This document shows positions 1-54,826 of a DNA stretch of 64,000 bases, piece after piece. The position numbers and the translations under genes were made by a program. The stretch is taken from the NCBI GenBank assembly GCA_942159475.1, contig OW804097.1, positions 7,035,685-7,099,684 on the forward strand, in the 5' to 3' direction. The stretch comes from Sthenelais limicola. Its lineage: Eukaryota > Annelida > Polychaeta > Phyllodocida > Sigalionidae. The notes under the pieces are model-generated. The model saw nothing but the letters and a program-made list of their open reading frames with translations, was not told where the DNA came from and made no database searches. The first letter of the stretch is position 1, and each line of letters opens with the position of its first letter.

Positions 1-79
1 CAGTCCATTGGGGAAGCCTTTCCAGTTGCTCTATGGATATCTGGGACAGTTCCTGTCCATGGTGACTCATCTAAAGCAT
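1..79 (-). CDS. NACHT exon continuing with Walker B (cut by window edge)
   Basis: The acceptor CTTTCAG at 80-86 opens a frame reading ALDESPWTGTVPDIHRATGK. With the preceding G this makes DALDE, the NACHT Walker B/Mg-binding motif. It continues past base 1. Confidence 0.8.
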
Positions 80-3000
80 CTGAAAGATTCGTGGTTTTAA
101 GGATTACATTCTCTTTTTTAAAAAAAACAAAGCAACTATGCTGAGGACTGATCATCTCAAAACCCTTGGTTTTATGGTATACATTAAAGATAGACCAAAC
201 ATTTTTCTTTTACTAGGGGCCCTCTGGAAGAGCTATGGTTTTCATGAAATAGAAGGACCCTTTTCTTGGGTAATATTGCGGTATTATTATTACCTATGTT
301 TTTTCAGAAATAAACATCGTACATACTAACAGACTTCTTTGACAGGACAACATCTATGCAACTATTATTAACCTACCCATACACATCACGCAACCTTCAC
401 CGTCTTTTTCAATTCCTGCTTTTAAAATATTGGTGTCAAAGTTCTCCAATTTGTAGAAAGAATAGTTCCTCAAAAAGTCAGTTAGCTCAATTTCAGATCC
501 CATTTTTGGAGGTATCGCCCGGAGGTTGAACAAAAATGCCAGCTTGAACTCGTTACCATATCGACCTTGAGCCCACAGTCTAGGCAGTTTTTGTATCACT
601 GTACTTTTCCCAACACCAGCTTTGCCCGTCAGGATAGTCATTGATGAAGACACTTTTGAAGGAATTATCTTATCTAATTTAATAATTTCATCAGTGATAT
701 TTGAGGTTTTGGATTCATATTTCTCTATATCGTCCTTCACAATCATTCTTGGCTCAATGAACTCTGTATCAAGGTCTATTGCTTGGTCAAGAACCTTTTC
801 CGCAAGATGAACAGTCCCCGCTATAATGTGCTTCATATTTTTCAATTTCCGTCTGGAAAAAAAAAAGAGATTATTAAGTAAATTAAGGGTCCTGTGCTGC
901 TCTCAGCACAAGCATATATATACTGTTGTTGAGCATGTATTCATGAGTCAGGTTAAATAAGACCTGGTGCAAACAAAGCCACTGGTTTGCCTTCCGTATG
1001 TGTTACTTTGTTTAATCCCACCACAAATCTGTGGTTCCATACAGATCTGTATAACATAGATTTACCATCGCCTACAGATGCGATGCATTATTATTTGTGA
1101 TTCTAATCTGTAGTCCCACAAATGTCAATAAGTTCAATAGGATCATATTTAGAGCAAGGTTTTGTGACTCGCCTGCGGTAAAGGACCATGACAACTGCAC
1201 CAATACCGGCACTAATAAATGCAACCACTGCTGCCATGGATATTGAAGCTACTGTTGCAACATGTGAAGCTCTGTCTAAATAGAAGTCGATAATAATGTA
1301 TATCTAGTATTTTCAGATTGTCTAACCTATTATAGAAAACCATTATGAATTGTGGCAATTAACGGATATATCAGAATTATACCTTATTTACCAGACATTA
1401 TAATGAAATTAATCGCCATTAACGCTTTTCATTAAATCTACAAATCTAAGGTCTTCAGAAATAATTGGATAGTATGTATGATAATATGATTGACATATGT
1501 TTCGATAGGAATATGCAGTATTAGTTTGGTTGTACTTACTTTGGCAGTATCCAGGATGGGTCCATTCTCCTGAATGCTGACATGTGATGTTACCTGCACC
1601 GTAATATATGAAGCCTTCTATACAGCTCACTCCTACCGAGGCCTCAAATACCCTGGAGTTACCTGCATACTTGCCATGGTCTAGCATTGGAAAGCTGCCA
1701 CACCTTATTCCTATAAGCAATATATTCACAGATTGTAAAATGTATCTATATCTATTTATTTAAGTATTCATCTCGGAAAATATTTGAAAATATTCATTAC
1801 CAAATACTTACATATTCGATGATGCTCAAAAGCTTTCATTTCCTTAATTTATTTGTTGCCACATACATGTAATAACTCTGTGAGTTCCTTGGACTGGTCG
1901 CCAAGATGATTGAGCCCAGTCATGTGATACACACTTTATCAGTTGAACTAAAGCCAGGGCCAAAACGATTACAATGCACATAATTATGGAGTTATGGTTA
2001 TTTACAAAACGAAAACACATATTTCAGGTTAAACCATCTATTTTTGGTGCCCCCATCAAATCCTTCACCAGTCAGCAAAAAATGTGCACTGTTGACATGT
2101 ATACAGTATCGCCAAAAGTACCTACTTAAACTACCTAATTACTAACTACTTCTAATAGTTGTCTTTCAATGCGAATGACCTGTTGACAGCTCTAATGCTA
2201 CTTCTAATAGTTGTTAAGATCGGGATGCATTGAGGGAGCCAATGTCACTATGTGCATAAAAGTGGGGTAGTGAGTACCACTATAGTATTAATTTGCCATT
2301 TAGTCGCTGATCTTTGGGTTCTCATGGAGTTATGGAACCTGATAAACGGCCACTTCCGACCCCTGTTGGGTATTAACGTTTTGCCGGATACTTTGGGCTG
2401 ATAATGCATTTCGGCAATTAGATTGCAGGAACATGTCTAGTTTTGCAGTGCCACTCTTACTACACAGCCGGCAGTAGGCAGAGTAACACATCTGACTTTC
2501 CCTCTTTATTCTGGCAATTTGGATCATTTATTTCATGTTACTTGAGCAGGTTTGATTACTTACATATCTGGCTGAATAGGCGGATATATCACTGGAAGCC
2601 AATGTTCAAAATTAGGCAAATTTATTTGTGTTGTTTTCAGGTCCACAAGAGGTTATTGTAAGGGTATCAAAGATTGCTTTCTCCACAGTCAGACACAACT
2701 CATTGCTACTGCCAAAACAACACAGCAAACATAGACCTGTGACATGCTATTAAAAAAGAGTTCTGTTCTTGATTCAGAGGTTGAATAGGTTGAATCCAAA
2801 CATTGGCGACAAAAGGTATTAATTCCCTTGGTTTGGTGGCTGAGGCCCGCCAGGGTATAGGGCCTCTATTTCACCATAAACAGCCAAAGCCATCAAACCT
2901 CAGGGAATTAATACCATAATGTTTGGCCCGAGCGGGGACTGTGGCCTAGGAGATCCCAAGGTGGCAAGCCCAAGGGTTCTACCAGGCCACAGAGACTGCA

Positions 3001-6000
3001 AGGCCCAACCATAGATGGAATTAATGCTTTTAGTGTCAGTGAAAAGTCAACCTAAAACCACCTCAAAACTATTTATGAAGTAAAACTAATCAGTCTAAAG
3101 TCCAAACTTACTCTATTTACCGATTGGATTTTGGATTGGATCAGTCATAACAACAGTCATAACAGCTCTCCCTAAAATATGTGCAATTTTATCTGGGCTG
3201 GCCCCTTGTTAGCTCTTGTTCTCCTGCCGTCCTGATTGTGGCTCAGGATTATTTATTAACACAGAAATTAGGCAACAAGCAGCGACTTCGTTTAGGCAAG
3301 GACATGGACATTGACTGTAATTCCAGCCAGTCCTATATTGTTCCTTGGAAGAATTGAGGTCCATAATTCTACCCTGATATTGTCCTGACTGAGACTGAAA
3401 CAGAACAATTCAAGCCTCTCATGGCACTCTTTTGACTATGCATGAAAAAGTTCTCATAACAGGAGTGGTCAAACCCCCTTTTGGACTTCATATTTGCCAA
3501 TGTCAATACACACATATGACTTTTTTTGACAGATGATATGTTTTATTATATCTGCAATACACTGAAAATTAATGTAGTTTGAACAACTCATATGACTTAA
3601 CCTAGGACCTAGATACATGTATGGTCTAGTCTTACAAATATATTATAACCAGGATCTTACTGTGACATTGTCCATTGCCTGTCCAGAGCTGATGTTGCCC
3701 ACATGTATAGGACGACCCATTGTATGTGAATCCCTTCTCACATGTGATGTTAAGGGTTGTACCGTAAGGACAGGGATCACAGTCAGCTGTAACCTCGGCT
3801 CCATGAATCACTGGTAGGTGTCTAGCACACTGGATACCTATGTATACAAAATAAAACAAGAAGTTTATACTTCTGACTGAGTCAGGTGAGAAATCATTTC
3901 AAATACTTCAAGAACCGAAAGGTCTAAAAAGATTTAGCAGACATAGTGATTATAACAGGTTTAATATCTCTCATATGATAACTTTGTTGTGAAATATTAT
4001 CATTAAAATTATAACAATTTGAGAAAATGATAAGAAAACGTTGTAAACGCCTATGGTATGGTGGGATAAGATTATTCTCTGATGTAGATCGATATTACTG
4101 ATCCTATAAGTACTTCTTCTACTCTTCACACCAAAACATAGTCTTTGACAAAGAATCTGCTTCATTATACACGCATTCACTACCAGGCCCCAACAGCTGC
4201 TCATTACCTGTAATGCGGTAATGGACTAGTACATTACCGGCGCGTTGTCGTGGCGAAGCTAGTTTGGTGGCGCAAGTTTGCCTACACAAGTTACTTCTTT
4301 GATTGTTTTACCTGTATCTAGTTATATTCCTCTTGTACAACAACCAGATAAGGTTGATTATATCATATATTTTTTAATTAACCACGTTTTACATGCAAAA
4401 TTAGGCATGTATATTAATCAACTTATAGGACTTGTTTTCCGCAAAGAACTCAATCTATGATTGTGTTCTTTACTAACGCGCCATGCCTTAACTCGTCCAA
4501 TAAGTGCTAATTATTTGCAATCTGTGAGTCTTTATCACAGGCAAGATCAATCGTTAAGATCCAAATTCAAGAACAGGTAATATGAAAGTGTTATCATTTA
4601 AAATAGCAATGTCAGCAGAAATAAAATGTCTGATCCTGGTGAGCCTTTTAAATAATATCTGAACTCGACAACAGGCAATGTTCATGTGAGGAACCATTCT
4701 CTGTCATTATCCCATCTAGCTACTACTGTCTCATGGGCAGAAAAATACACAAAAGTGTATAATTCATATCACTTTGCATAGCGAACATGGCAAAAAGTCA
4801 CACAATATTAAACAATACAGAATAGAATGATAAACATTACTTACGCAGACAAATTCCATCTATCCCAGACCAAGTGGCATCAGGCTGGCAGACCCTGGAA
4901 TTTGTACCAGTATAGCTGTAACCCTTACTGCAGGTTATAGCGAGGGTTGTATTGAACGGGTAATATTGCTTGACAGGATCCACTGTCATGTGATCTTTTT
5001 GCACAGGTCTGCCACAGTTTATCCATTTTATTCCTGGAACGTCAAACAGAATTTAGTGCATTATCACAGTAGAAGTAGATGTTTTAAACTATATTCTACA
5101 TTATTGACTGGTCTTTCAATTAAATCGGTATTTATCACTGGAAATGTATTTAACTATGCCCTGTTTGAACTTTATCCTGTTTTGACAAATTATCAACTCA
5201 AGGTATCTTAATATATGAGGCACCTCCTGACAATAATCACTTGTTCGTATTTCTTGTGGTTTCTTTTTAACTCAGGTAAGAGAAATATCTCTGCCTTAAT
5301 AAGAAAAATATTTCAACAACAATGTGTAGTACTTACTGACACATTCCCCGAGATTGATATTCCATGTCTCGTCTGCCTGGCACACAATGGGGTTGTCACC
5401 ATTATACACGTAGCCTGGTACACAACTTACTGTCAGCTGGTGTCTGAAGCCGTAGGGTGGATCAGATGAATAGAGTCCCTTGTCGGGGGTCTTTATATAT
5501 GGGCAATCGACCACTGAAAGGGAATTTGAGATATTAATATTATCAACCTTCAAAAGATCTGGGTGTCAGAGTGGCATATTCTATCGGCTAGGGCTTGTGA
5601 GACAATAGCACAGCACAATACTATAGGGATAGCATGTGTGATGTCTGCACGATAAGAAGAAATAGGCATGAAAAATAAAAATATGTGGTGTCCCCTGGGA
5701 TGGATATAATCATCTCTGTCCCAGATGCAGGGAGGGGATACATCTACCAGAAAGAAAGGAGATCAGGAGGAAGTGGTTCCTATCAGAAGTTTAAGCCATG
5801 GGCAGCAAGTGGGAAAGTTTGGCACTTTTTATTAAAACGTCCACAAATATCTAAGAAGTATACCAACATTTACAGACACCTGTTGTTCCATTCCAGTTAC
5901 CGTCCCTCAGACAGGTCCTCACTGATGTACCAGTGAATATGTAGTCCTCGTTACACTGGAACACGGCTGTGTCGCTGTACCTTGGCGTTGGTGCAACACT

Positions 6001-7989
6001 GACATTTCCATGGTGTAGTGTGGGGAAGGTTGGGCAGTGTACCACTGTGAAAATGTAGAAACATTTCCCGTATTGCTATTGCTATTGCTATTGAATGTAG
6101 TCTAGTAACCTATTAGGAAGTTTTAGATTGATCCTCAACATCAACAAGAACATCACCCATGATGAACAAATCAGCATGAAAATCTGTCTCATGAACAATC
6201 ACACACTAGCAGAACAAGGAGAACCAGCAAGAGTAGGCATTAATCATTTCCTTTTAAAATTAACACATCTGAATACATAAACATAAATATCATTCAAGCA
6301 GGCGTAAAACAGATCTGTAAGATGTCTACACATAATACATATAACTGACACTTCGTTTACGAAGGGCCATACAACCTTTACATACCATAAGAGGCCTAGG
6401 CCTCAACGTGTCCTATTACTTTCTTAATTATTTCCTGTAAAACCACACACTTTTGACATACATAGTTACACCATTTGGTAATTTATACTAATTCAACATC
6501 TTACATTTACATCCTGGGGTGGGGTTCTGCCACATGGTATCGTTTCCTACACACACTGACTCTGTCTGCAAGTCATAGTACTTTTCTTTACACCTGAACT
6601 TCACCCGGTCATTAGTGTTCCATCCTCCTTCTGGTGGGGTTCCTTCATAGTAGGCAGTGTTAAAGTCAGGCAGGGAGCACTCTAATAAAGGATAGATTCA
6701 AGACATTTTATCAGTATCGAGATTCCTAAATTCATGACATTATTTTATTATATTATTATTATATGACCTTATTTTTTTTTGATCGACGGAGTCAGCTTAA
6801 TTGATTTGATTCACAAATACCTAAGTATGTATACATTTAAAAAACGGACGTGATGAAGCCGCAATGTTTAATAATTGTGTACTTCCAGGTAGTTATGAAC
6901 GTAAGGATTAGCTTTAATAAATAATTCTAACCAGGATAACTTTACAAGGAATACAAACTCAAATTTTAGGAAAGCGTATGCATCATCCCCCAATTATTGA
7001 TTCCCTTTTCTGATCAGATTAAAATACCATAACATACCTCTATGTCTGGAAATGAAAAATCTGAAAGGATTTTTAGTTATTATTGCTGTTTGTCATTTAC
7101 AAGTCATGTGTGATATCATTTAGCCAGAGCTATACACAATCGATGAATAGAAAACAGAAGACTGATAACATAAATAGTTTGCAACATGTTGTCTTTTATT
7201 TTCAAAAGTTGGTAATTGATTAATAAATATATAGCGAATAGTTCATATTCCATGTTCACTATAAATATATAGGCATATGCATGGGTGTATAAATGTAGGC
7301 AGATCTGCCGTATTTCAGGTTGTTTTATAGATCAAGATATAGATGTGGATTACAGAGCCATATACTTTCAGAAATTATCTTTCAAAAACAATAACTTAGC
7401 CTGATGACGCAATGTCATAAACCCATAACAACTTTTCAATGTTATTGGGCATGTTTACATTATTTTTCAGAAAACCGGGAATGACACTAAATGTTAAAAA
7501 GAGCGGATCAAAGTAGAATGGATATGATCATAATATAAGTTTGACTAACATATTGCTCTGCCCTCCTCTTCAAGATGAAATATACAACACTTGAGAAATT
7601 TACGATGAATATCAACACTTCTTAAATGAACAATTATAATTTCTATATTTGGATATAATGTTATTCATACAATTTTTTTAACACAAATCGAAATGCCTGA
7701 ATTATTTCATATCTGTACATGTACTACGAAAATATAAAATTAAGAACGCTAGTAATGAATACATTGATTGCAAATATGTAAGTCAGAAAACAGGTACACA
7801 TATACACAACTGAACGTTTATGGAAAACTAGTAAAGGAAAATTAATAGAAGGATGCAGGCCATTATATATATCTCATTGCATTACTCACTCCATTGTCTG
7901 TTTCCACTCGGTGCACACTTCACAATCACTGATACAGACAGAAGACAATATATGAATATCATCCATCCATTAAGCCTTACTGGTGGCAT
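1..7989 (-). CDS. Sushi-repeat transmembrane protein with intracellular NACHT domain (partial, 3' end outside window)
   Basis: Exons in transcript order: 7890-7989, 6505-6681, 5868-6044, 5337-5513, 4845-5033, 3661-3837, 1540-1710, 1173-1275, 377-852 and 1-79 (continues). The first exon begins with ATG and encodes a hydrophobic signal peptide (MPPVRLNGWMIFIYCLLSVS). Six exons of 57-63 codons follow, all phase 1 to phase 1, each carrying one sushi/CCP module with its Cys residues and conserved Trp. Exon 1173-1275 encodes a transmembrane helix at about residues 398-421, followed by a basic stop-transfer run. The next exons carry a NACHT domain: Walker A GKAGVGKST near residues 500-508 and Walker B DALDE near 583-587, split by an intron. 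Every junction keeps frame. Sushi modules bind complement or glycans in other proteins; NACHT is an oligomerising NTPase of NLRs. A plasma-membrane receptor with a cytosolic NACHT is inferred. The least certain splice site is the donor at 5868 (GTTGGT). Confidence 0.82.
377..852 (-). CDS. NACHT exon (pre-NACHT helix and Walker A)
   Basis: A strong acceptor (polypyrimidine then CAG at 853-855) opens a 476-nt exon ending at an ATGG/GTAGGT donor. It contains FIEPRMIVKDDIEKYE, then MTILTGKAGVGKST (P-loop Lys and Ser/Thr present), a second strand FKLAFLFNLRAI, and the start of the Walker B strand GCVMCM. The last base G completes the Asp of DALDE with exon 1-79. Confidence 0.85.
1103..1175 (-). 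promoter_or_regulatory. GC-AG donor with alternative read-through tail
   Basis: The donor CAG/GCGAGT at about 1168-1175 splits two predicted products. Splicing to 852 attaches NACHT. Retention gives a tail of about 22 residues ending in ICGTTD and TAG at 1103-1105. GC donors are weaker than GT donors and are often used alternatively. That it is regulated here is inference. Confidence 0.5.
1173..1275 (-). CDS. Transmembrane exon with GC splice donor
   Basis: The exon enters in phase 1 and leaves in phase 2. It reads NRASHVATVASISMAAV and continues with a small-residue hydrophobic helix to VVMVLYRR. The donor at 1171-1172 is GC, not GT (CGCAG then GCGAGT), which fits the minor GC-AG class. Joined to the acceptor at 853-854 it gives an unbroken frame into the NACHT exon. 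If not spliced, the frame runs on through VTKPCSKYD to a TAG at 1103-1105. Confidence 0.72.
1540..6681 (-). CDS. Six sushi/CCP exons (symmetrical phase 1-1) of the sushi-NACHT gene
   Basis: Exons 6505-6681, 5868-6044, 5337-5513, 4845-5033, 3661-3837 and 1540-1710 are 177, 177, 177, 189, 177 and 171 nt long. Each begins two bases into a codon and ends one base into a codon, the classic shuffling phase for CCP modules. Typical pieces seen are INCGRPV, LAITCSKGY, ATWSGIDGIC (fourth module) and VVHCPTFP (second module). The modules are clearly different from one another, so this is an old array rather than a recent tandem expansion. The first module is the least typical, with the start CSLPDFNTAYYEG. 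Confidence 0.85.
2815..2917. repeat. Foldback element in intron
   Basis: The ends GGTATTAATTCCCTTGGTTT and its near reverse complement CAAACCTCAGGGAATTAATA sit about 60 bases apart around a GC-rich centre. This is a small inverted-repeat element inside an intron of the sushi-NACHT gene. Confidence 0.6.
6073..6094. repeat. (TTGCTA)n short repeat
   Basis: About three and a half copies of a TTGCTA unit in an intron of the sushi-NACHT gene. Confidence 0.7.
7890..7989 (-). CDS. Signal-peptide exon of the sushi-NACHT gene
   Basis: The ATG at 7989 starts a 33-codon reading frame with a hydrophobic core and ends at a GTGAGT donor in phase 1. That matches the phase of the first sushi exon (acceptor at 6682-6683). 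I see no better ATG upstream in frame. Confidence 0.75.
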
Positions 7990-10068: not shown

Positions 10069-13000
10069 TTATTTGAAGTGTGGATTCCTTCTCACAGGTT
10101 TCATGTACCCAGCCTCATCTTCAGACGAGCTCCCGTTGCGTAAATCTGCTGGAGTTGGACTGTTCACAAAAGCCATGACGTCCAATGGCTGGAAGACGGG
10201 GGGAGTAGGTACTCCTCCAACTGCACCTTCGCACCGAAGTGTATCGCTAAAGAGTGCATTCTCGTAAGGAATAGGGGCTGGGTAGTTGGGCATGTCGACA
10301 TCCTGGATATCCGAGCCAGCTTCCTCGGCGAGTAGTGGACATTGTGAGTCAGAGTTGCAAGGACTAAAAACATGTGCAGGTGGGGACAACATTGTAGGGG
10401 GAGCCTGTTGACCTGTTGACTGCGAAAGCAGGATGGTGGTTTTCTGTTGAGCTTTCATTACCTCCTCAGCTACTTCCTCAAGCAGATTGATGATCTCGGA
10501 GAAGTCAGGTCTTTGGTTGGCGTTGTGTTCCCAGCATCTGCGCATCACCTGGAAGCTGTACAAATCCTAAATTCAATTATTACATTTCTATTTCCGTATG
10601 CCTTCTGAACACTTTCTGGAGGCATTGATTCTTGGCAAACTAAACGAAGTAAAAAATTCAGCATTCACTGTTTTTTGTATTCAAATGAGAAAGGAAAGAG
10701 CAGATATGAATCATCTTGCCAATGTTAGGTATACATACACAGGTTCTGGACAATTGTCAGGCTTCTGGAGTCGGTTGCCTCTCTCTAGATGGATAAGAAG
10801 ATCCAGGTTTTCCACCATTGGGTAGGGACGGTCTCCTTGTGAATATACCTCCCAAACTGTCACTCCATATGCCCACTATATGGATTTGAAATTAACAGTT
10901 TCAAAATTCACCATTGCCGCACAGAATATTTGAGTTATCGAAAATGTGTAATTTTATGAAAGATTTGATAAGAAAAAATTGGTCACTTTTTGTCACATTG
11001 CAGGGAATCTGGGATCTACTTTGTTTAATCTGTGAACGTCTAATTTGTTTATGATTTTGATCAATATCTACAACTATCACTAACTAGTACATAACTGTGA
11101 GCCTTGTTTATATAGCTGGTTTATAAACAGCGCACTAAGTTCAAATCAGAGTTTCATAACAATAAACGATAATAACCAGCCCTAAGCTGAATAGGAGCAA
11201 TATGTCCTAGTATAACTAATGCATCCGTTCAAACGTTTTATTTTGTAAATTCTTGCTAAGTATAATAGTCACTCGACAATCAACAATGAGAAAGCCACAT
11301 TAGTTGGTATTTTTTTTTCAAATTTAATGTCCAATAAATTATTGTCATTGACAGGATGCATTTCAGAATATTTTACTTTTAAGTAGAAATCACTATTTTG
11401 CACTTACCGTGTCAGATTTAGAAGTGAAGAGTCTCTCGTCGAGACACTCTGGTGCCATCCACTTGAAGGGCATGGGTTTGTTACGTCCTTCTGGTCTGTA
11501 GTAGTCTGCCACGTAGATGTCCTTAGCAAGACCGAAGTCTCCTATCAGCACAACACCTGCAGCACTCACCCTGAAATAATAAGATGAATAAAACTGAACT
11601 ACTGGCTACTGCATGGTTGATACTTAATTCAAAATTCAATTTAGAACCATTTTCCAAAAAATCTAAAAACTCCAAATAATCATTTGTATTGATTGTGGAA
11701 GCTAATATCAAACATATCACAAACACGTCAGACAATAGATTCCATGAATTATTCTTTTCATCTTAAAACTGGGAATATTTTGAGAGGGTCGGTTGCTCAC
11801 TCCAACTCAAAAGAAATCTACAAACGTGTTATGTGTTGGATGAGAAGTAAGAGGGAAAATGAGTACTTACATACAATTCCTTGCAGCCAGGTCCCGATGC
11901 ACAAAACGTTTAGAGGACAGATATTCCATTCCTCTTGCTATATCAAGTGTGAACGCTGAGAAAGTCTTGAAGTCATACATCTGTAAATAGGGAATATGAT
12001 GAGGTTTTTTTTCATGAAAAATTAGATTAAATGTAAACTACTTTGACGTTCATATATATATATATATATTGCATTTTTATTCAGAAACAAATAACATTCC
12101 GAAATTGGATACTACTCTCTGCCTGAGCAGGTCTTTCTGAGAGATCCATTCCTACATAAATCTTGATCATAATTATACAAAGTTTTGTTTTCCAGAAAAT
12201 ACATACATATATAATATAGCTTTTGTTTTTATAAGAAATGATTATGGTTAATGTAATTAACTTTCCTGTGTGTTCTATCTACTTGTAACTAACTCTACAG
12301 TAAATGTTTACATGCTTATAAGTTTTCACCCATTTTAAAATGCGATACACAATGCAGGTTAAACGCTATGTACATAGTGTTGAAATGTCAATGAATAAAA
12401 GTAATGCTACATAGATGTATCGATCTTACATAAGGTCTTGTAGTCCTTTTTTCTTTCCTATACTGGAAAGCATCTCAGACCAGTCTGAGACATATTTACT
12501 CATCTCCTTCTATTAAACTTATATCATTTTCTGTTAAATGATAAGAGCGTAGGTATTGAATAATATTGTTTCTATGTGAAATGCAATGCATATTTAGGCG
12601 TGATAATCATGGTAAGGTATATATATGGACAAAACCAAGAAAATAAAGCCTTTGGGAAAGAGGCCGTTCATTATGCCGGGTTAGTTATGAGGTAATATTA
12701 GCTTTCAATTGATGGCTTTATGATAGAGTTTCGCCATATGGTACTTTAGTTTTATAATGGAGTTCAGGAAGAGAGAGATGTGGTAAACTTATTTTAATAA
12801 CAAGGCAATGCTGGATAGAGCGTATGTATTAAATATCATATAGGCCTTAAATAATAAAAAAGTACAGGTCTCTACTTTTGTTATGATGGCTAATACTCAT
12901 AGTTTACCTGTCTTGCAGCATATTTCCTCAGGTCTCCATTGATCATGTAGGGTAAGACTACATACAGGTCTCTAGGGTTCAGGATGACACCCATCAGGCT

Positions 13001-15744
13001 CAGTACGTTAGGATGTTGGAAGTCCTTCATTACTGTCGCTTCATTCAGGAAGTCCTCAATTTCCTCAATATCTGCACTTGTACCCTCTGAAAGAGGTACA
13101 AGTTTGATGTCAAGTAATAAACTGATGATTAATGATAGGTTTAAATTGTCCTGTTATATTTAATTACATGTTATATTTAATTAGTAACAACTGATCTTGG
13201 CGACTCTCCACTATACTTCATTTCTAAGCAGGGGTACGTTACATAAAGGGAGATATGCAATATTGGGTCTCCAATAAACTAATACGGGAGGTGTATCGTG
13301 CGTATTGGTAAAGTGGATTGCGTCCTAAGTTTAGATATTGCATCTCCACTTGCTAGTGATATATCAACATGATTTAGGAGGAAATCACAATGCAATATCA
13401 CCAACTACTACCTTAACCAATATAAGACAGACACAATTCTGCATGTCCTACATTAGTCCATTGGAGATGCAATATTGCGTATCTCCCTTTATGTAACGCA
13501 CCCCAGAACAGAAGTTTGGGGAATTAAAAACCAATCTGTATATTTACCTTTGAGTGTCTTTAGAGCAACATTTATAAGTTCACCTTCGATGGATATACTT
13601 GCGTGGAAAACCTTACCAAAGTTACCTGCAAAACAAAAAGATCTTTTTAATTCACTTAATGAATTCCATGTATATAAAGTGACATTTTTAATTTGTGATA
13701 CGAATTCCTAGTTTAAGTGATAAACAAGGTTGACAAAGGGTTTAAAAAGAATATAAGTTTGATTAACTCTTGACTTTTAATAACATACATCCAATTATAC
13801 TATTATATGACTATGTAAAGTAAAGAATGGAATATTTGTTCTCCAGCCAAAGTTTAATTTATTAAAGTAAAACTCTGGGCTGGAACACTTGCAGGGCATA
13901 CAGCTCAATTATGATTCATAAGTGGGAACTCACATTATGATACTGGTTTCTGGGCAATGATATTGTCAGAATCAATCAAGTAATTTCTTTCCCACTCTCC
14001 CAGTCTGTAGTAAAGTCCCAGTCTGTAGTAAACAGTCAAAGAGGCCACTTTACTTCAAGGTCAACTTAGCTATAGGGCTGCACCCCAAGTTAGGGACATT
14101 GCTGTATTAACCATTTTTTTTCTTAATCCTTGGGTATGAACATGGTTTTTTTGTTCATAAGTTCATCAATTGTGCAATAGGAATTTTCTCTGTATTTTTC
14201 TAAGAATAAAAGACCATCATTCCATACCTGCATAATTATAGTGCAAAATTTGAGTAAAAGGAGAGAATTAATTGATATAGGTTGTCTTCACACAATATGA
14301 AAAAGAATTTTTGGAATTGTGCATGCAACAGTTTCAAATATACACAGCCCTGAATCTCTGCTTTTGTTCCACATATGACAGTAACATTTAACAGAAAAAC
14401 TCAAAAAACTAAAAGGAACCTTAGAAAATGAATTAAGGCAATTAAGGTTTTGGTCCCTAACTTAGCACACACCACTATAGAAATACTACCTAACACTCAC
14501 TGGTCACGGTCTACTGATCCACTTGACACTTGACCTCAATTCTCAAAAGTATATACATAAATATTTAGCTGTGTTTTTACTGTTGAAATCAAATGAAAGA
14601 GCTCCCTGAGCTTTCTGCTGCCACTATTTGTTGTTATACATCCATATGCTTTATAGGTTTGCATTTCCAAAGCAGGTAGAAGTCAGGGACTATAAATATT
14701 TAGCTTAGATTACAATATATACTGTCTGAGTGCATTCACTTCCATTGAAACGGAAGTTTACCAGACCCTCCGTCTTGTCATTTATGCATAGCACACTGGG
14801 AAGACACTAGCCAAGTAACAGACAGAGTCTTCTCTATTAAATGCTGCCTTACAGCCACACACATTATTGGATTATTCATTATAGTGTACATAACATAATA
14901 TCTTAGTTTTCCTCAATGTCTGAACAGAGGTTATAGTCAGACCAGTGTCCCCCTTTAAGGGAACAGCATCTTAACAAGGCAATGATAAGTTGTACTAGCT
15001 GATATCCATCCTTTTCGAATCAATATATATACAAGTATATTGGTCGTTTATTTCATTTCATTTGTTTTGGCACATGATTTTAAGAGCATGCCACTCATCA
15101 AACCTGGCATTTTACTGAATAATAAACCATTAAGTGCTTACCTTTACCAATTCTCTTGTGCTTCTGAATGTTGTCGCATGTTAGAAGTCTTGCTTGAATA
15201 ACTTTCTGTAGTGCTGGGTTGAGGCTTGATAATATGTCTCGTTCACTTACAGCCACCGCTGCCTCACTGTCAGTCCTGTTTGCTGCAGAGGGCAAGGACA
15301 GAATACCAAAGCCTCTTTAAAACACATACACTGTGCCAGTATTCAAAATACAAGTATTTGCAAGTACTTGTGGGATCAATTGTCTCCCATATTTTATTAT
15401 CTGTGCTTTCCACTCCAGAGGTGCACTGAAGTGGGTGTGAGGAGAATATATGTTATTGCATTTGAACGAGAGAAATTTGAAACCTTTTTCACCGTGTTAC
15501 ATTCTATATATAATATATCTACAAATGTCTGTTTAGCTGCTGTACCTTCCAATGTAGAGAGTGGAATTTCCTGTGTAGGATTGTGCTTCCTTTTTCGCCA
15601 TCTCCACAGAATGATTCCAACAGAAAGAAGCCCAAACACAAATAAAGTGGCAAGAAAAATATAGATTGGATTATGTTCACTTTCTTCAACTGGACTTTTT
15701 GCGATGAAGAAACCCAGATCGAATTTAAAATCGTCAACCGTTAC
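10069..15744 (-). CDS. Transmembrane, kinase and tail exons of the receptor kinase
   Basis: Exon 15546-15744 has the last IPT strand ([13 protein letters not shown]), the helix [20 protein letters not shown] and a basic juxtamembrane run. The kinase is split over 15142-15282, 13548-13625, 12908-13086, 11871-11980, 11408-11570, 10741-10875 and 10069-10566. All catalytic residues are present: glycine loop, Lys881, Asp974 of HRD, Asp992 of DFG, and CW with RPDF in the C-lobe. [15 protein letters not shown] and KFVHRDL-like segments resemble MET and TAM kinases. The Tyr pair in DIYVADYYR is the expected autophosphorylation site. The tail of about 125 residues is Pro/Ser-rich. Confidence 0.88.
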
Positions 15745-18700
15745 CTGAAAATCATTAAAATTTAAGACATCATTGAAGTAATTGGGTTCATGGAATTGAT
15801 AGAATATTGTCAGATAAAAAAGGTCTTATCCCTGGAAACCTTGTGTTTTCTCAGTAAACTGATAAAACCTGCTTAATGATATCTCATAGAAGACAGCACA
15901 CACACTTACATGACTCTATCAATATGTAACGAATGATGGGGGACTAACCATTATTTGAAGACTCTTTTTTTCCAATTCGAGACTCATATTGTAAGCGTCA
16001 CAGACCAACGCATAGCTGTCCAAGTTGATGACTGCACATTTGTCGTTACTTAGGAGAATAGTGTAATCATTTTTGGAACAGCACAAGTCCAAATTCTCTC
16101 CCTATGATGTAATGGGAATATCACATTAACTAATTGGCTCTTAACTCGGTAAAGTTTAGGCCAAATTCTTCTGTAGTCAGGTATGTTTCTTAAGAATGAC
16201 TTTGAATTTGTACGAATTGTCTTAAGGTCGATATAGAATACTTATGAGTAACAACAAGGAGATTACTGACTATTCATTTTGTCCAGAGAGAAGCTGTTTT
16301 ACAGTAGTTAGTACCTCAGGCTTTACTTCCACCCACAATCCTCTCATCATTTTGCAATAAAATTGATGCCAAATCAATCAAATCCTTACTTTCTACTGGG
16401 AGTGCTTACTTTTAGAGTCAATTCTCCATCGTTGTATTCAAATTCGCCCGGGTAGAAGTACGGTTTAGGAAAGATGACAAATTCCTTGTCTGGGAAGAAG
16501 GCAGAAAGGTTCCTGTATTTCTCCACCCCGTCCAGCTCAAGCCCTATGGATGTTCTGAGGGTAGACTTCTGTTCAAGTTTAGGCATGGTACATATCATCC
16601 TCTGGCTACTTTGAATAGAACACTCCTGTATAAAGAAAATATGTTTTGATACTCAACAATAGATCGGTAAGAATGTTGAGAAAGGAAACCTACTGTTCGA
16701 CTAAGAATAAAATGTTTTTCCAGTTATTAATTCGTATTACCTTCCTAGTTATATCCATGCCAGAGATGTTTAGTATTTATCATATAAAAAGCGTAACACT
16801 ACTCATAATAAGTAATATCCACCCTAACTATCCGTTTTATGAAATTTAGTTAAAATAACAAAACATACCTTACATTACTGTTTTTACTAATCGAGTTAAT
16901 AGTTTGATGTTTCCTTACCCCCTTGGAGTGTAATACACCGACAGTCAATATCTTGTTGGTTCCATGAAAACTCACAGAATTAAGGAACCGGCCATGGACT
17001 GTGATTTTACTTCCACCCCTGTATAGTACGTTTGATATGTGTTACAATAATATGAATGATAATGATAAATAAATACTTAATGTTAAAATCATATGGTCGA
17101 CGTAAGGTTTTCAACACCATCATATACAATACAATACAATATATTAGCAGAATATGCTATACTCAGATTTCTAGAACAGCTCATTAATACTGTTTCATAA
17201 ATTGGGGGACACCATTATAAATGCTATCAAAGTTCTTAATTATCAAGATTTAAGAATCATGTTAAAAACAATGTACATCGTTTGTACCACCAGCAATCTC
17301 AAACAGGGATTTATGGAAAAGGTACTTTGTTGTTTATTTTTGGTTCATCATAAATAACATTTATTTCAGATATGCCCTATACGATGTAATATGTATAGTA
17401 TTAGTATGATTAACATGACTCACGTGAGGAAGGCCCTGTAGGGTGTAACGTGTTCAATGATGGGGTCAGGCAGATAGGTGAAGTTCAGCTCTTGGTCGAT
17501 ACGGTACCTTACACCATCAAGTAGGAGGTCCACCCACACCAATAATTGTTTTCCAATCATACTGTTATTTATAGAGTTTGTCTGATAGGTTATTGAATCA
17601 TTGGTGTACAACACACCCCTGAAATATTGAAAAAAGGAAATGTGAACGTACACATTTCAAGGAATTTGTTATTATTGGACTATTTATGACATGGTTATTA
17701 AGAAAAGAATTCTGACCATGCTTGGATGTTACAGTGGACTTAATTAAAAATAGTTAGTATATATTTACTTGTGCAGTCAAGAAATATCCCTCTTCTGTGA
17801 TTATGAAAAGATTGATGAATAGATAAGCCTTACAGATTTGAATTTATGGGTGTTACGTCAGAAAAACACCTTTGTACTGGGTGTGTTGAAAGGATTATTT
17901 GGAAGAGATTGAATAGTGTAACTAATAACTAGATAATCTGGTTGTATTTGTTCATTGCATGATAGTATTCTGTCATATGTTGAGAATTATTATCATGTAT
18001 CTGATAAAATGCTATCAATAAACAAACAAACAAACATATCAAAGTCATCACTAAAACCATACGCATAGATTCAAAGGAAATATTTCTGTATGAATAAAAC
18101 CGTCACCAACTTGAACGATGTGTATTCCTCAGCTGTTCCCATGAAGACCTCAACTGTGATGTTAAGTTTCAGCTGAGGCTTCAGTAGCTTTCCCTTGATC
18201 GTGACTAATGTGCCGCCAGATGCAGGCCCGAAGTTAGGCATCATCAATTCTACGTAAGGTGCCTTAGGAAGAGAAAAATATAATAGTCTGATATACTTAT
18301 TGATCGTATTTCTCGTGGTAGTTGCCTGGTCTCACAATACTTTTACAAACACTGATTGAAGTACACTTTATAATTCCCTTTCCTTAGTTCCAAATTCGTC
18401 TTTAAAAAACTGGGCAAGAATCTATGAAACATACCAGAACAAGACATCAAATATGTTGCAGTGGGATTATGAGAGAATGAATCAAAGCTTACTGCAATCC
18501 CTTTGCAAATTGAGGGAATTAATTCCAAGATTATAATGCGGAATCTAATATCTTGAGTATCTCTGAATCCAGTCTGATCAACATAATGCAAAACCAAGAA
18601 ACTAGACAGTAATTGATTAGCCAAATGACATTCATTTGCAATATTACATGATGCTAATATGCAGCTCTCCATTGATGAAATAATTAAAGAAACAAAACAT

Positions 18701-28500: not shown

Positions 28501-29215
28501 AACTAGGCCTACTCTGTAGAAGGTTTTGTCTAATTTGGTAGCATATTCACTAATGTAGGCTAGGCCTACCCTAGCCTTCGTTGCTGGCCTTGATTCCCCA
28601 ATATTCTGCCTCTGGGGGCAAGGGGACGGATACTTTGTCTAGGCCTACCCTACATGTTTAGGCCTACTGAAAAGCCACTTAGGCCTACAAATTCTTTGCA
28701 GTCTCTAGCTGTTTGTCCGTCGTGAGTAGGGGCGAGGAATCCCGCCTGACGTCATGAGCGAAATTTCCATGACATCATCAACATGGCGAGAGCGATGATC
28801 GAGGATGGAGCGAGTGAAAAGCAAAAACAAGGTGGGTTCCAGCATGTTGCCATGAGAAAACAACGCTTGCCGTATTATCTTGGACATAGTCTATGTATTG
28901 CTCTCGAATATTAATAATATTATCATAGACCAACACGCACTGGAGTAGTCCACACTCAAATATTCCTTTAGGGGAATAAGAACACGTCTGAATCAGTGAT
29001 CATCCGCCATTGACATTGTCATTGATTAGGCCTTCTACTTTTTCTTGGCACACATGTAGGCCTAACCTCAGGCCTGACTGTATGAACCGCTACCATGTTC
29101 CTAAAACAGTTGTTTGAGTCACTTAATTGGCTCCTAGGTTCCAACTTCGCCACAACTTTAGCCTACCTGTTTGGGAAAAAAACTTTAATAAATAGGGCGG
29201 TCTTTATGAAAGCCG
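25523..29215. other. Upstream region of receptor kinase; AGGCCTA-rich, no gene supported
   Basis: This holds any promoter and untranslated 5' exon of the kinase gene, which I cannot place. A foldback with arms CATATGATTACCA/TGGTAATCATATG is at about 27068-27116, and a T-run is at 27427-27448. From about 27800 to 28700 the palindrome AGGCCT recurs many times. Downstream exons of the CARD gene would be expected here or in the gap, but I found none. Confidence 0.4.
27800..28700. repeat. Cluster of AGGCCT/TAGGCCTA motifs
   Basis: The palindromic hexamer AGGCCT, mostly as TAGGCCTA or AGGCCTAC, appears over twenty times in about 900 bases at irregular spacing. It is not a clean tandem repeat. The function is unknown. 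Confidence 0.7.
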
Positions 29216-29415
29216 NNNNNNNNNNNNNNNNNNNNNNNNNNNNNNNNNNNNNNNNNNNNNNNNNNNNNNNNNNNNNNNNNNNNNNNNNNNNNNNNNNNNN
29301 NNNNNNNNNNNNNNNNNNNNNNNNNNNNNNNNNNNNNNNNNNNNNNNNNNNNNNNNNNNNNNNNNNNNNNNNNNNNNNNNNNNNNNNNNNNNNNNNNNNN
29401 NNNNNNNNNNNNNNN
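29216..29415. other. Assembly gap (200 N)
   Basis: A run of exactly 200 N, probably a placeholder rather than a measured size. It may hide further exons of the minus-strand CARD gene. Confidence 0.99.
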
Positions 29416-29513
29416 ATGGTTTATTAATTTGAAATTATTTACATCATCGTCACTATTTTGGTTCTTACTGATACCATAACCACACACATTACTTCATTTA
29501 ATTTAGAACTCAC

Positions 29514-42781: not shown

Positions 42782-44481
42782 TTTCACGAAATCAGTGACT
42801 TCTTGGGGGTAAGTATTTTTCTCATCTCTTCAACAAGATTATGTTTCTTATATCATGCTGTAGGCAAACTAGTATATCCAGTATATCTATATCTTTCCTA
42901 GTGTATACATTTCATGAGGTTTTGATATGAATGTTTCTCTGGGATGTATTAAAGTGTTTTGGAAGTGATAGAGTTACTTTAAGGTTAGAGGATAGCCTAT
43001 CCTGACTATATCAACAACTATAATAATATTGAAAATTATGTTTCTTATATCATACTCTTGTCAAACTAGTATATCCAGTATATCGATATCTTTCCTAGTG
43101 TATACATTTCATGAGGTATAAGAAATAAATCTTATTTCTTTTTTGTCTCTTGTAGTGTGTTATATTGGTTGTATCGTTGATATTCATAGTAAGTATTTCC
43201 TGCATTTTCTTATCGTTCTCCACCATTTGATATGAACATTTCACTTGGAAGTATGAGAGTCTGTGTGAAGTGATAGAATTTCTTCATGGCTAGAGGATAG
43301 CCTATCCTGACTTTATCAAAAACAATAATAATATTGACAATTATGTTTCTTATATCATGCTGTTGGCAAACTAGTATATCTAGTATGTCTATATTATTCC
43401 TAGTGTATAATATCATGAGGTATAAGTAATAAATCTTACTTCTTTTTTGTCTATTGTAATGTGGCAAATATGTTGCATTGTGGATATGTGTAGTAAGTAT
43501 TTCCTGTATTTCCTTATGGTTCTCCACCTTTTGATATGAATATTTCTCTGGGATGTATTAAAGTTTTTTGGAAGTGATAGAGTTACTTTAAGGTTAGAGG
43601 ATAGCCTATCCTGACTATATCAACAACTATAATGATATTGAAAATTATGTTTCTTATATTATCTCTCTCTTGTAGTTTCACGAAATCAGTGACTTCTTGG
43701 GGGTAAGTATTTTTCTCATCTCTTCAACAAGATTATGTTTCTTATATCATGCTGTTGGCAAACTAGTATATCCAGTATATCTATATCTTTCCTAGTGTAT
43801 ACATTTCATGAGGTATAAGTAATAAATCTGACTTCAGTTTTGTCTCTTGTTGGTTGGCCAGGTCGTTGCATGTTGCATATTCATAGTAAGTATTTCCTGC
43901 ATTTTCTTATCGTTCTCCACCATTTGATATGAACGTTTCTCTTGGTAGTATGAGAGTCTGTGTGAATTGATAGAATTTCTTTATGGTACAGTTAGAGGAT
44001 AGCCTATCCTGACTTTATTAACAACAATGATAATATTGACAATTATGTTTCTTATATCATGCTGTTGGCAAACTAGTATATCTAGTATGTCTATATCTTT
44101 CCTAGTGTATAATATCATGAGGTATAAGTAATAAATCTTACTTTGGTTTTGACTCTTGTAGATGGGCATATTTGTTGCATTGTTGATATGTGTAAGTATT
44201 TCCTGCATTTTCTTATCGCTCTCCACAATTTGATATGAATGTGTTGATATCCTGTAGCAGTGATATCACAATCAAATCTTAGTAAGCTTTGGTGGGAAAT
44301 TACTCATCTTGAGCAGGATAACATAGGAAAATCATTAACTTGGTAGAACCGGGAGTATCTCTAGCAGGGAAGCGGTACTGAGCTAGATTTTATTGACAAA
44401 CAGGAGAGCCTGGTAGAGGTGGTACACAGGGCCACATCAGCTTATAAAATGTCTCTGAATAATATATTTAAAGGGACATAA
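42782..44481 (+). pseudogene. Mini-exon gene, set 1 (A, B exons; decayed D and C exons)
   Basis: Type A exons at 42782-42808 and 43676-43702 are identical 27-mers encoding FHEISDFLG. Type B exons are at 43156-43188 (CVILVVSLIFI) and 44162-44191 (MGIFVALLIC). A B copy at about 43460 has lost its acceptor (TGTAAT for TGTAGT). Another at 43862-43885 seems to use a shifted acceptor (VVACCIFI). The D copy (44258-44316) has an in-frame stop, one base missing and a lost donor (GATAAC). The C copy (44368-44481) stops early after 37 codons. This set cannot make the product inferred from the later sets. Some A/B exons could still be used by splicing onward. Confidence 0.6.
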
Positions 44482-44870: not shown

Positions 44871-46727
44871 TCAATTCAATTCAATTCAAGACATTTTTTA
44901 TTTGCAATTAGCGTTGGTTACAAAAAGGAGGTCCCAGTTTTGAAACCTCGGTTCCAAGTCTTCCTGTGGGTTCCTGGGTTGGTGGTTTCCAAAACAAGCT
45001 TACAATAAGATATTATGATATAAATTTCATGGCTATGTTTCTATTATCTACTTAACTAGTTTAGTTGGACATTAAATGCCACAACTGGCTAAAAGTAAGT
45101 TGTAATAACTGGCTAAGTTGTACTAACTAGAGCATACAGTAAAATCAGGGTAAGATAATAACAGTGCAATCAAACAGTAGTTGGTGATCTGTATAGTCGG
45201 TCCAGACCAAGAAGAATTTTACAGAAACAACAATAAAAGTACATATAATAAAATACAATACAATACAATATCATAGTTATTCAACATAAGATCTGTAACA
45301 GATCATGAGGTAGGTATAGTAACATATTGACATACACGTACATAGTTTAGTATAATGGTAGGGGGTGTTCTTATAATATTTCAATTTCATTTATGCAGGG
45401 GTGAATAATTTTGCTAAAGGTTTTCCGGTCTTGTACTTGGTGAGCAGCAGTTTCAAGCGAATTCCAATATTTAGCCGCTTTATAAATAAAAGAGTTTAGA
45501 ATTTTTGCAGATTTTGGCTGTAGTAATTTTAAATTACGTCTGCCTTTGGGATGACTCCTGGTTGAGATTTTTCTGTTATCTAAATTGGATTCATCTGTAG
45601 CCATGAAGTGGCTTAGATTAATTATATGTTTTTGTCTCCTTTTGTTTAAAGAGATAAACCACTGTTATACGCACTGCTGCAGGCGGGAGTTAAAGGAACT
45701 AATGCATGAAAAATAAGGATTGACAGTAATTTTTTCAAACTTTGTCTTGAGAAAGTACATGGTTGGAGGATAACAAAAAGCAAACAAAAAATGGATCTCA
45801 GCATATTCTTTTTCTTTCTAGAGACCAGCAAAGTTTAGTATTGAAGTATGTGGGAAAAATGGATATTTTCTCAGTTTTTCCAAGATTTCAGACAGACAAA
45901 TAACATTTTTCAATTGAAATGTCTTCTAAACATAACCACTATAGATATTTACCCTCATGTATGAAAGAACAGGGTATCAACATATTTTGAAATATATTAT
46001 TTAGCATTGAAAATCTTCAATATTCCTGTTTTTAACTCACCGGGATGCAGATTCAGTTGAATAACTTTTTTAAAAGGTTGGTGACCCCCATTTTTTATTG
46101 CTTGAAAGGGTAAAGCAATATGTTAGCTATGTTTATAGATATTTTTAGGAGAAAGTTATTTTCAATTTTTTTTTCATACTGAAAAAACGAAAAAATTGTC
46201 CTTTTCTCATAGACTTCTATAGTGAACAACCATAAATTTTGAAGCCCCCTAAAATGAAAACTAACCCGGTGACATATTGTTTTTATTGGCTTTTTGAATT
46301 CACATAACCTTGTTCTTTCACGAGGCAAAGTTTAAACAAAATCTTATTTTCAGTTTTTTTCCCAGTTGAACTGTGGTTTATCTCTTTAAGTGTAGTAAGT
46401 TCAGGTCTAAATGTTCTTGATCTACATTTATGTACTTGGTTTTTCCAAAAATGATTCGAAGTGCCGAATTTTGTAAGGACTGGAGCTTACCAAGTAGTGT
46501 TTTTGGTCCGGAATCATACAAGTAGTCACCAAAATCGAAGTGTGGCAGTATGGTCATTTTATATAAGTCTTTCTTGCTCTTCTCAGTTAAACAGTGCCTC
46601 ACTCTATACAAAAGCCTCAATTTTGTACTAACTTTATTTCTGATAATATTTATATGTTTGTTGAAAGAGAGACCCGTGTCCATAGTTAGACCTAGATATT
46701 TATACTCCTCTTTTATCTTTAATTTGA
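44871..46727 (-). mobile_element. 5'-truncated LINE fragment inserted in the mini-exon array
   Basis: Reverse-transcriptase tail on the minus strand: EEYKYLGLTMDTGLSFNKHI, LQNSALRIIFG, then after an insertion NLKLLQPKSAKILNSF and AAKYWNSLET. The 3' end at 44871 carries a (GAATT)n tail. The copy interrupts the intron before a type A exon, between CTTGGCAACATT and ATTCATGTTGACTT. A separate 736-bp element sits inside it. It is inactive because the 5' half is missing. Confidence 0.75.
45650..46385. mobile_element. TTAA-flanked inverted-repeat element nested in the LINE
   Basis: Both ends read AGAGATAAACCAC inward and are flanked by TTAA (45646-45649 and 46386-46389). Removing the element and one TTAA would restore the LINE reading frame across the site, so this was a clean insertion. 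TTAA target sites are typical of piggyBac-type transposons. There is no transposase inside, so it is non-autonomous. Confidence 0.8.
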
Positions 46728-47177
46728 TTCATGTTGACTTAAGTAATTTTATGCTAGTTCTGTCTCTTATAGATTTGGAAAACATGTCACTTCTTCTTGG
46801 ATGTAAGTAGTTTCTGTATCCTTTTAACATTATTATGTTTCTTATAATCATGCTGTTGGCAAACTAGTATATCCAGTATATCTATATCTTTCTAGTGAAT
46901 ACATTTCATGAGGTATAAGAAATAAATCTTACTTCTTTTTTGTCTCTTGTAGTGTGTTGAATACGTTGTATCATTGATATTCATAGTAAGTATTTCCTGC
47001 ATTTTCTTATCGTTCTCCACCATTTGATATGAATGTTTCTCTTGGAAGTATGAGAGTCTGTGTGAAGTGATAGAATTTCTTCATGGCTAGAGGATAGCCT
47101 ATCCTGACTTTATCAAAACCAATAATAATATTGACAATTATGTTTCTTATATCATGCTGTTGGCAAACTAGTATATC

Positions 47178-49060: not shown

Positions 49061-49540
49061 CTTATTGACACCCCTGTAGATAATATTTACCTGAAATACA
49101 AATATTTAGTAGATCGGCCCATAAATGTGACCAAAGCTTAAACAGAAACATTCCCCATTTGTGAATGGGATTTTCAAGATTTCTGGTGACAATACATCCA
49201 CCAGAATGTTGCTGTAATTCTAGCTTGCCCGTCAGCTTATGACCAATAAGTTCACCGTCCTGCGGACACTTAATTTGGTCCATATATTATTTGTACATAG
49301 GTCAGAGGTGAAGGTGGAAGAAGTATTCCTCACACCTGTGTGATTTGCACTACGCTATTCATAAACAAATGCTTGCCTAAGTCATTATTCACTATTGTAT
49401 ATTCTACCCTACGCCAATCATTTTGCATTTACCCACAATATAACAGATATCATTTGATTTTTTCATACATTTAGTGACCAGTTTCAAAACCTAGCTTGCC
49501 GCCTCCCTTGAACCCTTAACATTAATGTTGTCTGATTACA

Positions 49541-50723
49541 GCACTTGAACCCGCAGAGACTAGGGCAAAAGGCAATAACCAATTAGAAGAAGTAGAAGAA
49601 TACAAGTACATAGGGACTGTCGTTGACAGTTCACTAACTTTTAATGGACATCTAAATTCAATAAAGAGAAAGATTTCCCATATAATCTGGCTCTTCAGGC
49701 ATCTAAGAAGTCGATTGAACCAGTATCTTAGTGCACAAGTCTACAAATCTACCATACTTCAATTAATTGATCAATCAGATATTTTTTATGATTCGGCCTC
49801 AACATCAAATATAAAATTCCTTCAAACTTACCAAAATAGAGCTTTAAGAATTATAACAAAATCAAATAAATACCAAAATGTAGACCACTTTCATACCTAC
49901 TTCAACCTTCTTCCATTAAAGCAGAGGTGGAGGCTTCATATCCTTCAGCAAGCAAACCAACTAAAAATCAATCCTGAATATCTAGATTTAAGAACTCTAC
50001 AAACTCGCCAATTCCAGCAGGGAAAAATTCTATTTAAATGTCCATTGCCAAGACTTGAGTTAGTCAGGCGTTCATTATATTATAAACTGCCATATTACTG
50101 GAACAGACTGGAAGCGGACCAACATTACATTGAAAACCCAACACAATTCACTAATAACATAAAAGAAACCAGTATTTGGTTTGATCAAAAATGTGTATAC
50201 TGACTCTTATGTATGTTACACCGTTCCACTCAGTTCCTTCTTACACAATAAGTCAGACTCCATCTCCCCACTCCTCTCCTCATTTGATGCAAATGTATAA
50301 TGTATATACCCCAGCTCCAATACAATTACAATTACATCTATTCTTAACAATCAATACCTTAAAGCCTCAATTTGATACCAATGAATGTATAATTCAATGA
50401 TTACTTATCCTCCTTTGATATTGACTACCGGTTGGTAGGGCGGTAGAGAATATGGTCTTGACTTTAATGTCCACTTTATGTTATGTAGTTATAATCAATA
50501 ATATATATGCGGTAATATCTTGATGATTAAACAATAGTTAATTACTTAAGACCAACTTGTGATAGAGGCCACCATTAGAGCGTTGAACTAATGGTGGATT
50601 GTTACCTCTATCAAATTGTACCAACAGTGTTCAGTAGGGCTCGAGCTCCTCCCATCCCTGGGAGATTGACCCACTGACGTGCGTCCTTTGATGGACTAAT
50701 AAATGTAACAACAACAACAACAG
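49541..50723 (+). mobile_element. 5'-truncated LINE fragment with 3' hairpin and (AAC)n tail
   Basis: The frame from 49541 to 50203 is the C-terminal part of a non-LTR reverse transcriptase: EEVEEYKYIGTVVDSSLTFN, LQTYQNRALRIITKS, LPYYWNRLE. The 3' untranslated part has a hairpin at 50562-50615 (GATAGAGG, ACCATTAG and their complements) and ends in (AAC)n at about 50708-50721. Array sequence resumes right after (50724), so it inserted into the duplicated intron. Confidence 0.78.
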
Positions 50724-53588: not shown

Positions 53589-54152
53589 ATGTACATAACA
53601 GGCTTCGGCCAAAGGGAAGGACCCGGAAAACTCCAGTCGACCCATATAAGAAGTGAGGTGGGGGTTGAGCAAAGGAAGCCGCTTCATAGTGCTACAATTC
53701 AGTCAAAGTTAGTGAGTAGTGCAGGAACTGGTTGTGTGGCTCAGGCACCTGTTAGTATGGAGTTCGAGCTGGCTCAAGGTCAGTCACTTCTGAAAACAGG
53801 AGATGCTAGCTCGTTGCTGGAAGAGAACACCCGTCCGGATGAGATTAGATCCCCGGATAGCTCAGAAGATTGTCCGTTGTTGAGGTGGGGACAACCCGGG
53901 TACCAGGCTGCTGATGGACAGATTGTTGTTGTGGGTCAGAACTCCAACCGGACTGCCGGGATTCAGAAAGTTTCTGTCTGTGAACTGAATACGCTGAAGA
54001 TCCCAAACAAGATTATTGTTCACGAGAGATGGTACGCCCCTGTGGGATTGGGTGGAGGATTAGGAGACTTCTCGGTTGACCCAGGCGCGACTACAAGACT
54101 AGTAACCAAACAATTCTATGACTCCCTCCCTGAGTCACTCCAGTGGACTTGA
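53589..54152 (+). pseudogene. Protease-end fragment of the retroelement polyprotein
   Basis: A 187-codon frame ends with FSVDPGATTRLVTKQF, which resembles the D-S/T-G-A active-site strand of retroelement aspartic proteases, with Pro in place of Ser/Thr. It stops eight codons after the motif region and overlaps the next frame at 54143. The N-terminal part is low in recognisable features. Confidence 0.5.
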
Positions 54153-54826
54153 TTCATGGAGTGGAGCCGGGAGGACTTGATTTCCCATGTCGTCTGGCGT
54201 TTGTTGAAAATTTAAGGCAATGGATGAGAGAAGGGCATCAGTTTGTCAGAGACAATCTTGGCGTTGCTGCAGTGCACCAAAAGAAAGTATTTGACAGACG
54301 TGCAAGGCCCAGGCGCTTTGAAAAGGGGGATGTGGTCTATCGTTATTGCCCCCCTAAGGCCAACAAGAAGATCAGACCGAAGTGGGATGGGCCTTTCAAG
54401 GTGCACGGATTCGTAGGGGGTACTACGTACGAATTGGAAACCACTGAGGGCATTGTGAGGTACCACATTGATTACCTCAAACCAGCATTTGATGATAAAG
54501 GGCCTATTCAGGCAGTGCATTTGAGTAAAGCTCAGGAGTTCCAAAGGTTGGAAAAAGCTGGTCGAGATGTGCTCCGGTGGGAAGGTGGTAAGGTTCTACC
54601 AGGTGTAGAGTGTCCTGTGAAAAAGAGAAAAAACAAGATTACCATACGGGTTAATCCTGTTGGTAGACCCAAGAAGGCAGACAAGCAGAAGAAGCAACCT
54701 GTACCAGTTGTTCCTTTACGTGCCCCTAACAAAGGAGCTAAGGGGAAAGAAGGGTCCGGTTGTGAAAAATGTTCCTGTGAATCAGAATGTTGTTCCTGCC
54801 AAGAGAGGTGTAGGCAGACCTCGTAA
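54143..54826 (+). pseudogene. Integrase C-terminal fragment of the retroelement
   Basis: FEKGDVVYRYCPP, KKIRPKWDGPFKVHGFVG and TYELETTEG make the SH3-like C-terminal domain of Ty3/Gypsy integrases. A Lys/Arg-rich tail follows with VGRPKK. The reading continues in another frame to 55028 with GVGRPRK and RRGRPRK, both AT-hook-like, so a frameshift lies near 54750-54800. Confidence 0.65.

Follow-up and report, generated by a model that had tools for sequence, protein, structure and literature searches.

The window, that is, the whole stretch of 64,000 nucleotides of Sthenelais limicola DNA that was analysed, carries at its left end a gene of ten exons on the minus strand that runs from position 7989 to position 1. 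The spliced frame stays open over 608 codons, and the window's edge truncates the gene in the middle of a NACHT domain. A first-pass annotation of this DNA had proposed ten exons in consistent phase, and all ten were found where it had placed them, with an open frame when joined. Eight of the nine introns have GT-AG borders, and the remaining one, which leads from the membrane exon to the NACHT exon, is GC-AG. The features of the gene are as follows.

7890..7989, minus strand: exon 1, carrying the start codon and a leader that resembles a signal peptide (judged by eye), phase 0 to 1
6505..6681, minus strand: exon 2, CCP/sushi module 1, phase 1-1, four Cys (Pfam, Cys count)
5868..6044, minus strand: exon 3, CCP/sushi module 2, phase 1-1, four Cys (Pfam, Cys count)
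5337..5513, minus strand: exon 4, CCP/sushi module 3, phase 1-1, four Cys (Pfam, Cys count)
4845..5033, minus strand: exon 5, CCP/sushi module 4, phase 1-1, four Cys (best Pfam Sushi stretch, residues 217-268)
3661..3837, minus strand: exon 6, CCP/sushi module 5, phase 1-1, six Cys, two of them extra (CDPC) (Pfam, Cys count)
1540..1710, minus strand: exon 7, CCP/sushi module 6, phase 1-1, four Cys (Pfam, Cys count)
1173..1275, minus strand: exon 8, predicted transmembrane helix, phase 1-2 (hydropathy)
853..1172, minus strand: GC-AG intron of 320 bases, donor CAG/GCGAGT, acceptor CTTTTTTTTTTCCAG (splice-site scoring)
1103..1172, minus strand: read-through of the GC donor, tail RRVTKPCSKYDPIELIDICGTTD (its first codon spans the junction), stop TAG at 1105-1103, possibly a short isoform (translation)
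377..852, minus strand: exon 9, phase 2-1, with basic residues next to the membrane, then a linker of about 70 residues, Walker A GKAGVGKST and the start of NACHT (Pfam, PDB comparison)
1..79, minus strand: exon 10, incomplete at the window edge; Walker B DALDE, begun in exon 9, is finished here (translation)

On the 5' side of the gene, at 10069-18331 of the minus strand, there are apparently pieces of a receptor tyrosine kinase that looks MET-like from its sequence. Kinase matches were obtained at 11867-12037 (E 9.6e-12) and 12890-13153 (E 1.3e-11), with a further one below cutoff at 10069-10566 (E 0.0013); the nearest PDB entry to the piece at 12890-13153 is the hepatocyte growth factor receptor (E 1.5e-12). 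A frame at 15397-15825 appears membrane-like by eye, and a TIG match at 18071-18331 lies just under its cutoff (19.7 against 20.9 bits), both on the minus strand. Judged by eye, the plus-strand frame at 54134-54826 resembles the integrase region at the C-terminus of a Ty3/gypsy-type retroelement, and the frames at 49526-50203 (plus strand) and 46378-46728 (minus strand) resemble the ends of LINE-type reverse transcriptases; the Pfam search gave no retroelement family for the frame at 49526-50203. Two identical frames of 84 residues stand 1196 bases apart on the plus strand (59750-60004 and 60946-61200), which suggests a recent duplication or a repeat, and a tandem repeat with a period of 304, 2.5 copies and 83% matches occupies 42920-43666. 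The part of the window richest in G+C holds two long open frames on the plus strand, 56094-57416 (440 residues) and 57364-58272 (302 residues), the former without any match in Pfam at E up to 1. Scans of the window for tRNAs and, at the gathering threshold, for Rfam families returned no matches.

A domain search of the translated model, which the first-pass annotation had named as a check, placed six Sushi domains and one NACHT domain above the Pfam cutoffs. The six Sushi stretches together reach 124.3 bits (E 2.6e-36), and every one of the tandem modules (6/6) occupies a phase 1-1 exon with the four conserved cysteines, the total count being four in five modules and six in one. Seven N-glycosylation motifs lie within the modules. 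The helix encoded by exon 8 has the highest 19-residue hydropathy mean of the entire model (2.52 at residue 403) and is followed by the basic stretch RRRKLK, the longer YRRRKLKNMK spanning the junction of exons 8 and 9. A CCP-like pattern run over the window gave no matches and missed the six known modules as well, so it is uninformative on further CCP exons.

Of the solved structures, complement receptor 1 is closest to the ectodomain (E 8.1e-65), with complement receptor 2 next (E 1.1e-51); the ectodomain has an array of CCP modules in common with both. Since CCP arrays are similar to one another, this closeness is a lead and no proof of a ligand. Both complement receptors carry a single membrane helix behind the CCP array, as does the present model, and their cytosolic tails are short and devoid of NACHT, unlike the one predicted here. 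A comparison of residues 1-430 with a protein collection yielded one match among 2018 candidates: a protein of Dendroctonus ponderosae whose listed domains include Sushi but not NACHT.

The NACHT match scores 41.1 bits against a cutoff of 26.7 and covers residues 495-588. It spans profile positions 2-93 of 167, so that the first half of the domain alone falls inside the window, and the sequence beyond it probably completes the module. Walker A and Walker B motifs divided over two exons had been proposed earlier and are borne out: GKAGVGKST lies in exon 9, and the first D of DALDE is split by the junction of exons 9 and 10. In all six frames of the window, GKAGVGKST (at 626) was the sole match to the P-loop pattern. 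The nearest PDB entry to this half is NLRC4 (E 6.4e-4), over about 45 residues around Walker A, followed over a similar length of about 45 residues by 5irm/5irl ('uncharacterized protein') and NLRP1 (E 0.0022); ABC transporters begin at E 0.035.

Among Pfam matches at E up to 1, a range in which the HMMER filters lose most matches above E 0.1, there was no CARD, PYD, Death, DED or BIR domain upstream of NACHT. The sole match ahead of the P-loop region was DUF3483 over the helix, at 13.9 bits against a cutoff of 31.5. The first-pass annotation spoke of an NLR-like receptor; for an NLR in the strict sense the evidence falls short. The NACHT domain with its Walker A and Walker B motifs agrees with it, but Pfam finds no N-terminal effector domain, and ahead of NACHT the same frame encodes the leader, all six CCP modules and the membrane helix, from which a protein that is not wholly cytosolic is predicted; the C-terminal region, where leucine-rich repeats (LRR) would be sought, falls outside the window. 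Searches of the protein collection gave no relatives of residues 390-608 at E 1e-3 among 1493 candidates, and none of residues 424-608, with the C-terminus beyond the window entered as X, at E 0.1 among 528 candidates. As the six-sushi query had a single match, the collection seems thin in animals, and the absence of NACHT relatives from it says little. AlphaFold applied to exon 9 alone returned a mean pLDDT of 31.8.

NCBIfam gave P-loop matches only, far under their cutoffs, and the PADLOC matches were weak (RecD_like best, E 1.3e-4; Avs4 12.7 bits; Avs2 10 bits) and are read as general P-loop similarity.

The two halves of the model meet at the GC-AG intron. Its donor flank scores 9.2, the highest value among 2056 GC and 3414 GT sites on the strand, and its phase fits exon 9. 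The donor matrix leaves out the GT/GC pair; the eight other donors of the gene score between -2.5 and 3.5 on it, so the matrix may not suit this genome. Ahead of the read-through stop the GC donor is the only one to score above 1, and elsewhere on the strand similar sites of the form (A or C)AG/GC(A or G)AGT number two, at 55605 and 36169. In simulated first-order Markov sequence of matching composition a GC donor of such a score appears 0.05 times per 64 kb strand, an estimate from 60 simulations and hence from about three events. The chance of finding one in fitting phase within the 80 bases from helix to stop is about 2e-5 by simulation, about 1e-4 when GT donors are counted too, and about 4e-4 when calculated from the rate observed on the actual strand, this site included, figures that are orders of magnitude for a site picked after being seen. 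On the other side of the intron, the acceptor of exon 9 consists of ten T followed by CCAG. Taken together, the phase of the frame, the donor and acceptor at this critical intron and the domain scores lead to a single polypeptide whose sushi modules face outward and whose NACHT domain lies within the cell, a reading that is strongly supported at the level of sequence.

If the intron is left unspliced, the frame continues into the tail and stops, giving a product of 446 residues, and this early end makes either a short isoform or a pair of genes possible. The first of these is compatible with a single gene: the GC donor would act as a switch, so that both a short sushi receptor and a long NACHT receptor are produced. 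We regard such a switch as a real possibility, though a rather unlikely one. The retained frame stops soon past the membrane, and its tail contains YDPI, which we take to be a possible endocytosis signal; a YxxPhi motif could, however, easily arise by chance in 23 residues. The codon preference of the tail (0.0 per codon) falls between the means of exon pieces (0.075, n=117) and of open intron pieces (-0.21, n=388), but it fails to separate the two cases, as 38% of the 117 exon pieces score as low or lower and 14% of the 388 open intron pieces as high or higher. GC donors are reported (PMC2490688) to constitute less than 1% of donors, to lie nearer to the remaining consensus, which favours the splice as such, and to be enriched in alternatively spliced genes, which favours a switch.

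An arrangement of two neighbouring genes would consist of one for a membrane-bound sushi protein whose short tail ends at 1103 and a separate, cytosolic NACHT gene starting in or just before exon 9. The in-frame stop at 1105-1103 would close the first gene, ATTAAA at 1016 and TATATATA at 922 are found behind it, and an ATG at 836 is in frame with NACHT. These signals lose weight on closer comparison, as TATATATA occurs 26 times on this strand of the window (overlaps counted), AATAAA is absent from 1172-853 and the gap between the genes would be merely about 250 bases. Two genes also leave unexplained why the strand's best donor flank and an acceptor of ten T and CCAG should face each other in matching phase, and we judge this arrangement to be quite improbable. 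An assembly chimera or a decayed gene, for which one might cite that no second copy was seen and that a run of N stands at about 29212-29422 (an assembly gap or a withheld stretch), is most improbable, given that frame, splice dinucleotides and domains are intact across ten exons and that the membrane and NACHT exons are 320 bases apart with no N between them.

A single gene encoding a type I membrane protein with a CCP array, a helix and NACHT, which would operate through clustering, is therefore in our opinion the best explanation overall and a likely one. The first-pass annotation had set it against the statement that NACHT proteins are normally cytosolic, which holds as a rule, but membrane NACHT proteins have already been described, as PMC8699970, PMC5094078 and PMC12909245 document. 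Membrane NACHT receptors being known, what is new here is the six-CCP ectodomain and the GC-AG junction.

The closest layout is that of AjNLRC4 from the sea cucumber Apostichopus japonicus, for which PMC8699970 gives an ectodomain with an Ig-like and an Ig domain (1-482), a helix (483-503) and NACHT (600-757). In both proteins extracellular modules are followed by a helix, a linker (of about 96 residues in AjNLRC4 and about 70 in the present model) and a cytosolic NACHT domain, the topology of the present protein being predicted, and in both no CARD was found ahead of NACHT. The likeness described is one of layout, and the ectodomains differ, with Ig-like and Ig domains there and CCP modules here. 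AjNLRC4 also has a second predicted membrane stretch behind NACHT (776-795), and the corresponding region of the present gene lies beyond the window. According to PMC8699970, AjNLRC4 binds microbes, forms dimers or oligomers and drives phagocytosis via beta-actin; PMC11932488 reports that, once the receptor is internalised, its Ig domains bind caspase-1.

Other membrane-placed NACHT proteins are arranged differently. According to passages of PMC5094078, membrane helices occur in 8 of 35 sea anemone NLRs, 3-5 in each and N-terminal, and these passages mention no extracellular module array. AjNLR-new is described in PMC13133943 with the reverse topology, NACHT outside and Ig inside. In sponges, NLRs with membrane helices are recorded in PMC12909245, where 'sushi-NACHT' of Dysidea avara is also named a single time, to illustrate a set of 64 NACHT genes whose architectures fall outside NLRs; two domain names in one gene are thus shared with the present model, the comparison being by name only. 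A detailed description of a sushi-helix-NACHT protein was not found in the literature searched, most subscription papers and supplementary lists being outside its scope, and none appears in the passages of PMC11797021, PMC2575513, PMC8260672 and PMC6208332. The literature also reports about 21 NACHT combinations in amphioxus (PMC2575513), induction of a sponge NLR with a predicted helix (PMC6208332) and, for two molluscs, low NACHT counts: four proteins in Aplysia (PMC9334734) and none in a Mytilus edulis transcriptome (PMC3308963).

If the protein is built as the single-gene model predicts, its CCP array would engage a complement opsonin or the surface of a microbe on the extracellular side. 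Clustering would then draw the NACHT domains together at the inner face of the membrane and allow ATP-dependent oligomerisation. In the linker of about 70 residues between helix and NACHT no effector domain is recognised. By analogy with AjNLRC4, the assembled cytosolic part might recruit partners, actin for uptake or a caspase. Assembly without adaptor proteins, as put forward in the first-pass annotation, finds no support in this analysis, and AjNLRC4 is reported to act through beta-actin and caspase-1 (PMC8699970, PMC11932488). A more specific version, in which modules like those of CR1/CR2 would sense complement opsonins or microbes outside and be wired to a NACHT switch, with regulated splicing of the GC-AG intron picking between a short uptake receptor and a long NACHT receptor, is speculative and we consider it unlikely.

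Should transcripts confirm the join, the membrane-receptor layout that occurs with Ig domains in a sea cucumber would also exist with complement-type modules, and NACHT would have been joined to different surface ectodomains. If the model is true, it would become possible to test directly whether clustering of the extracellular part is by itself enough to make NACHT assemble, and whether NLR-type signalling can take direct input from complement opsonins.
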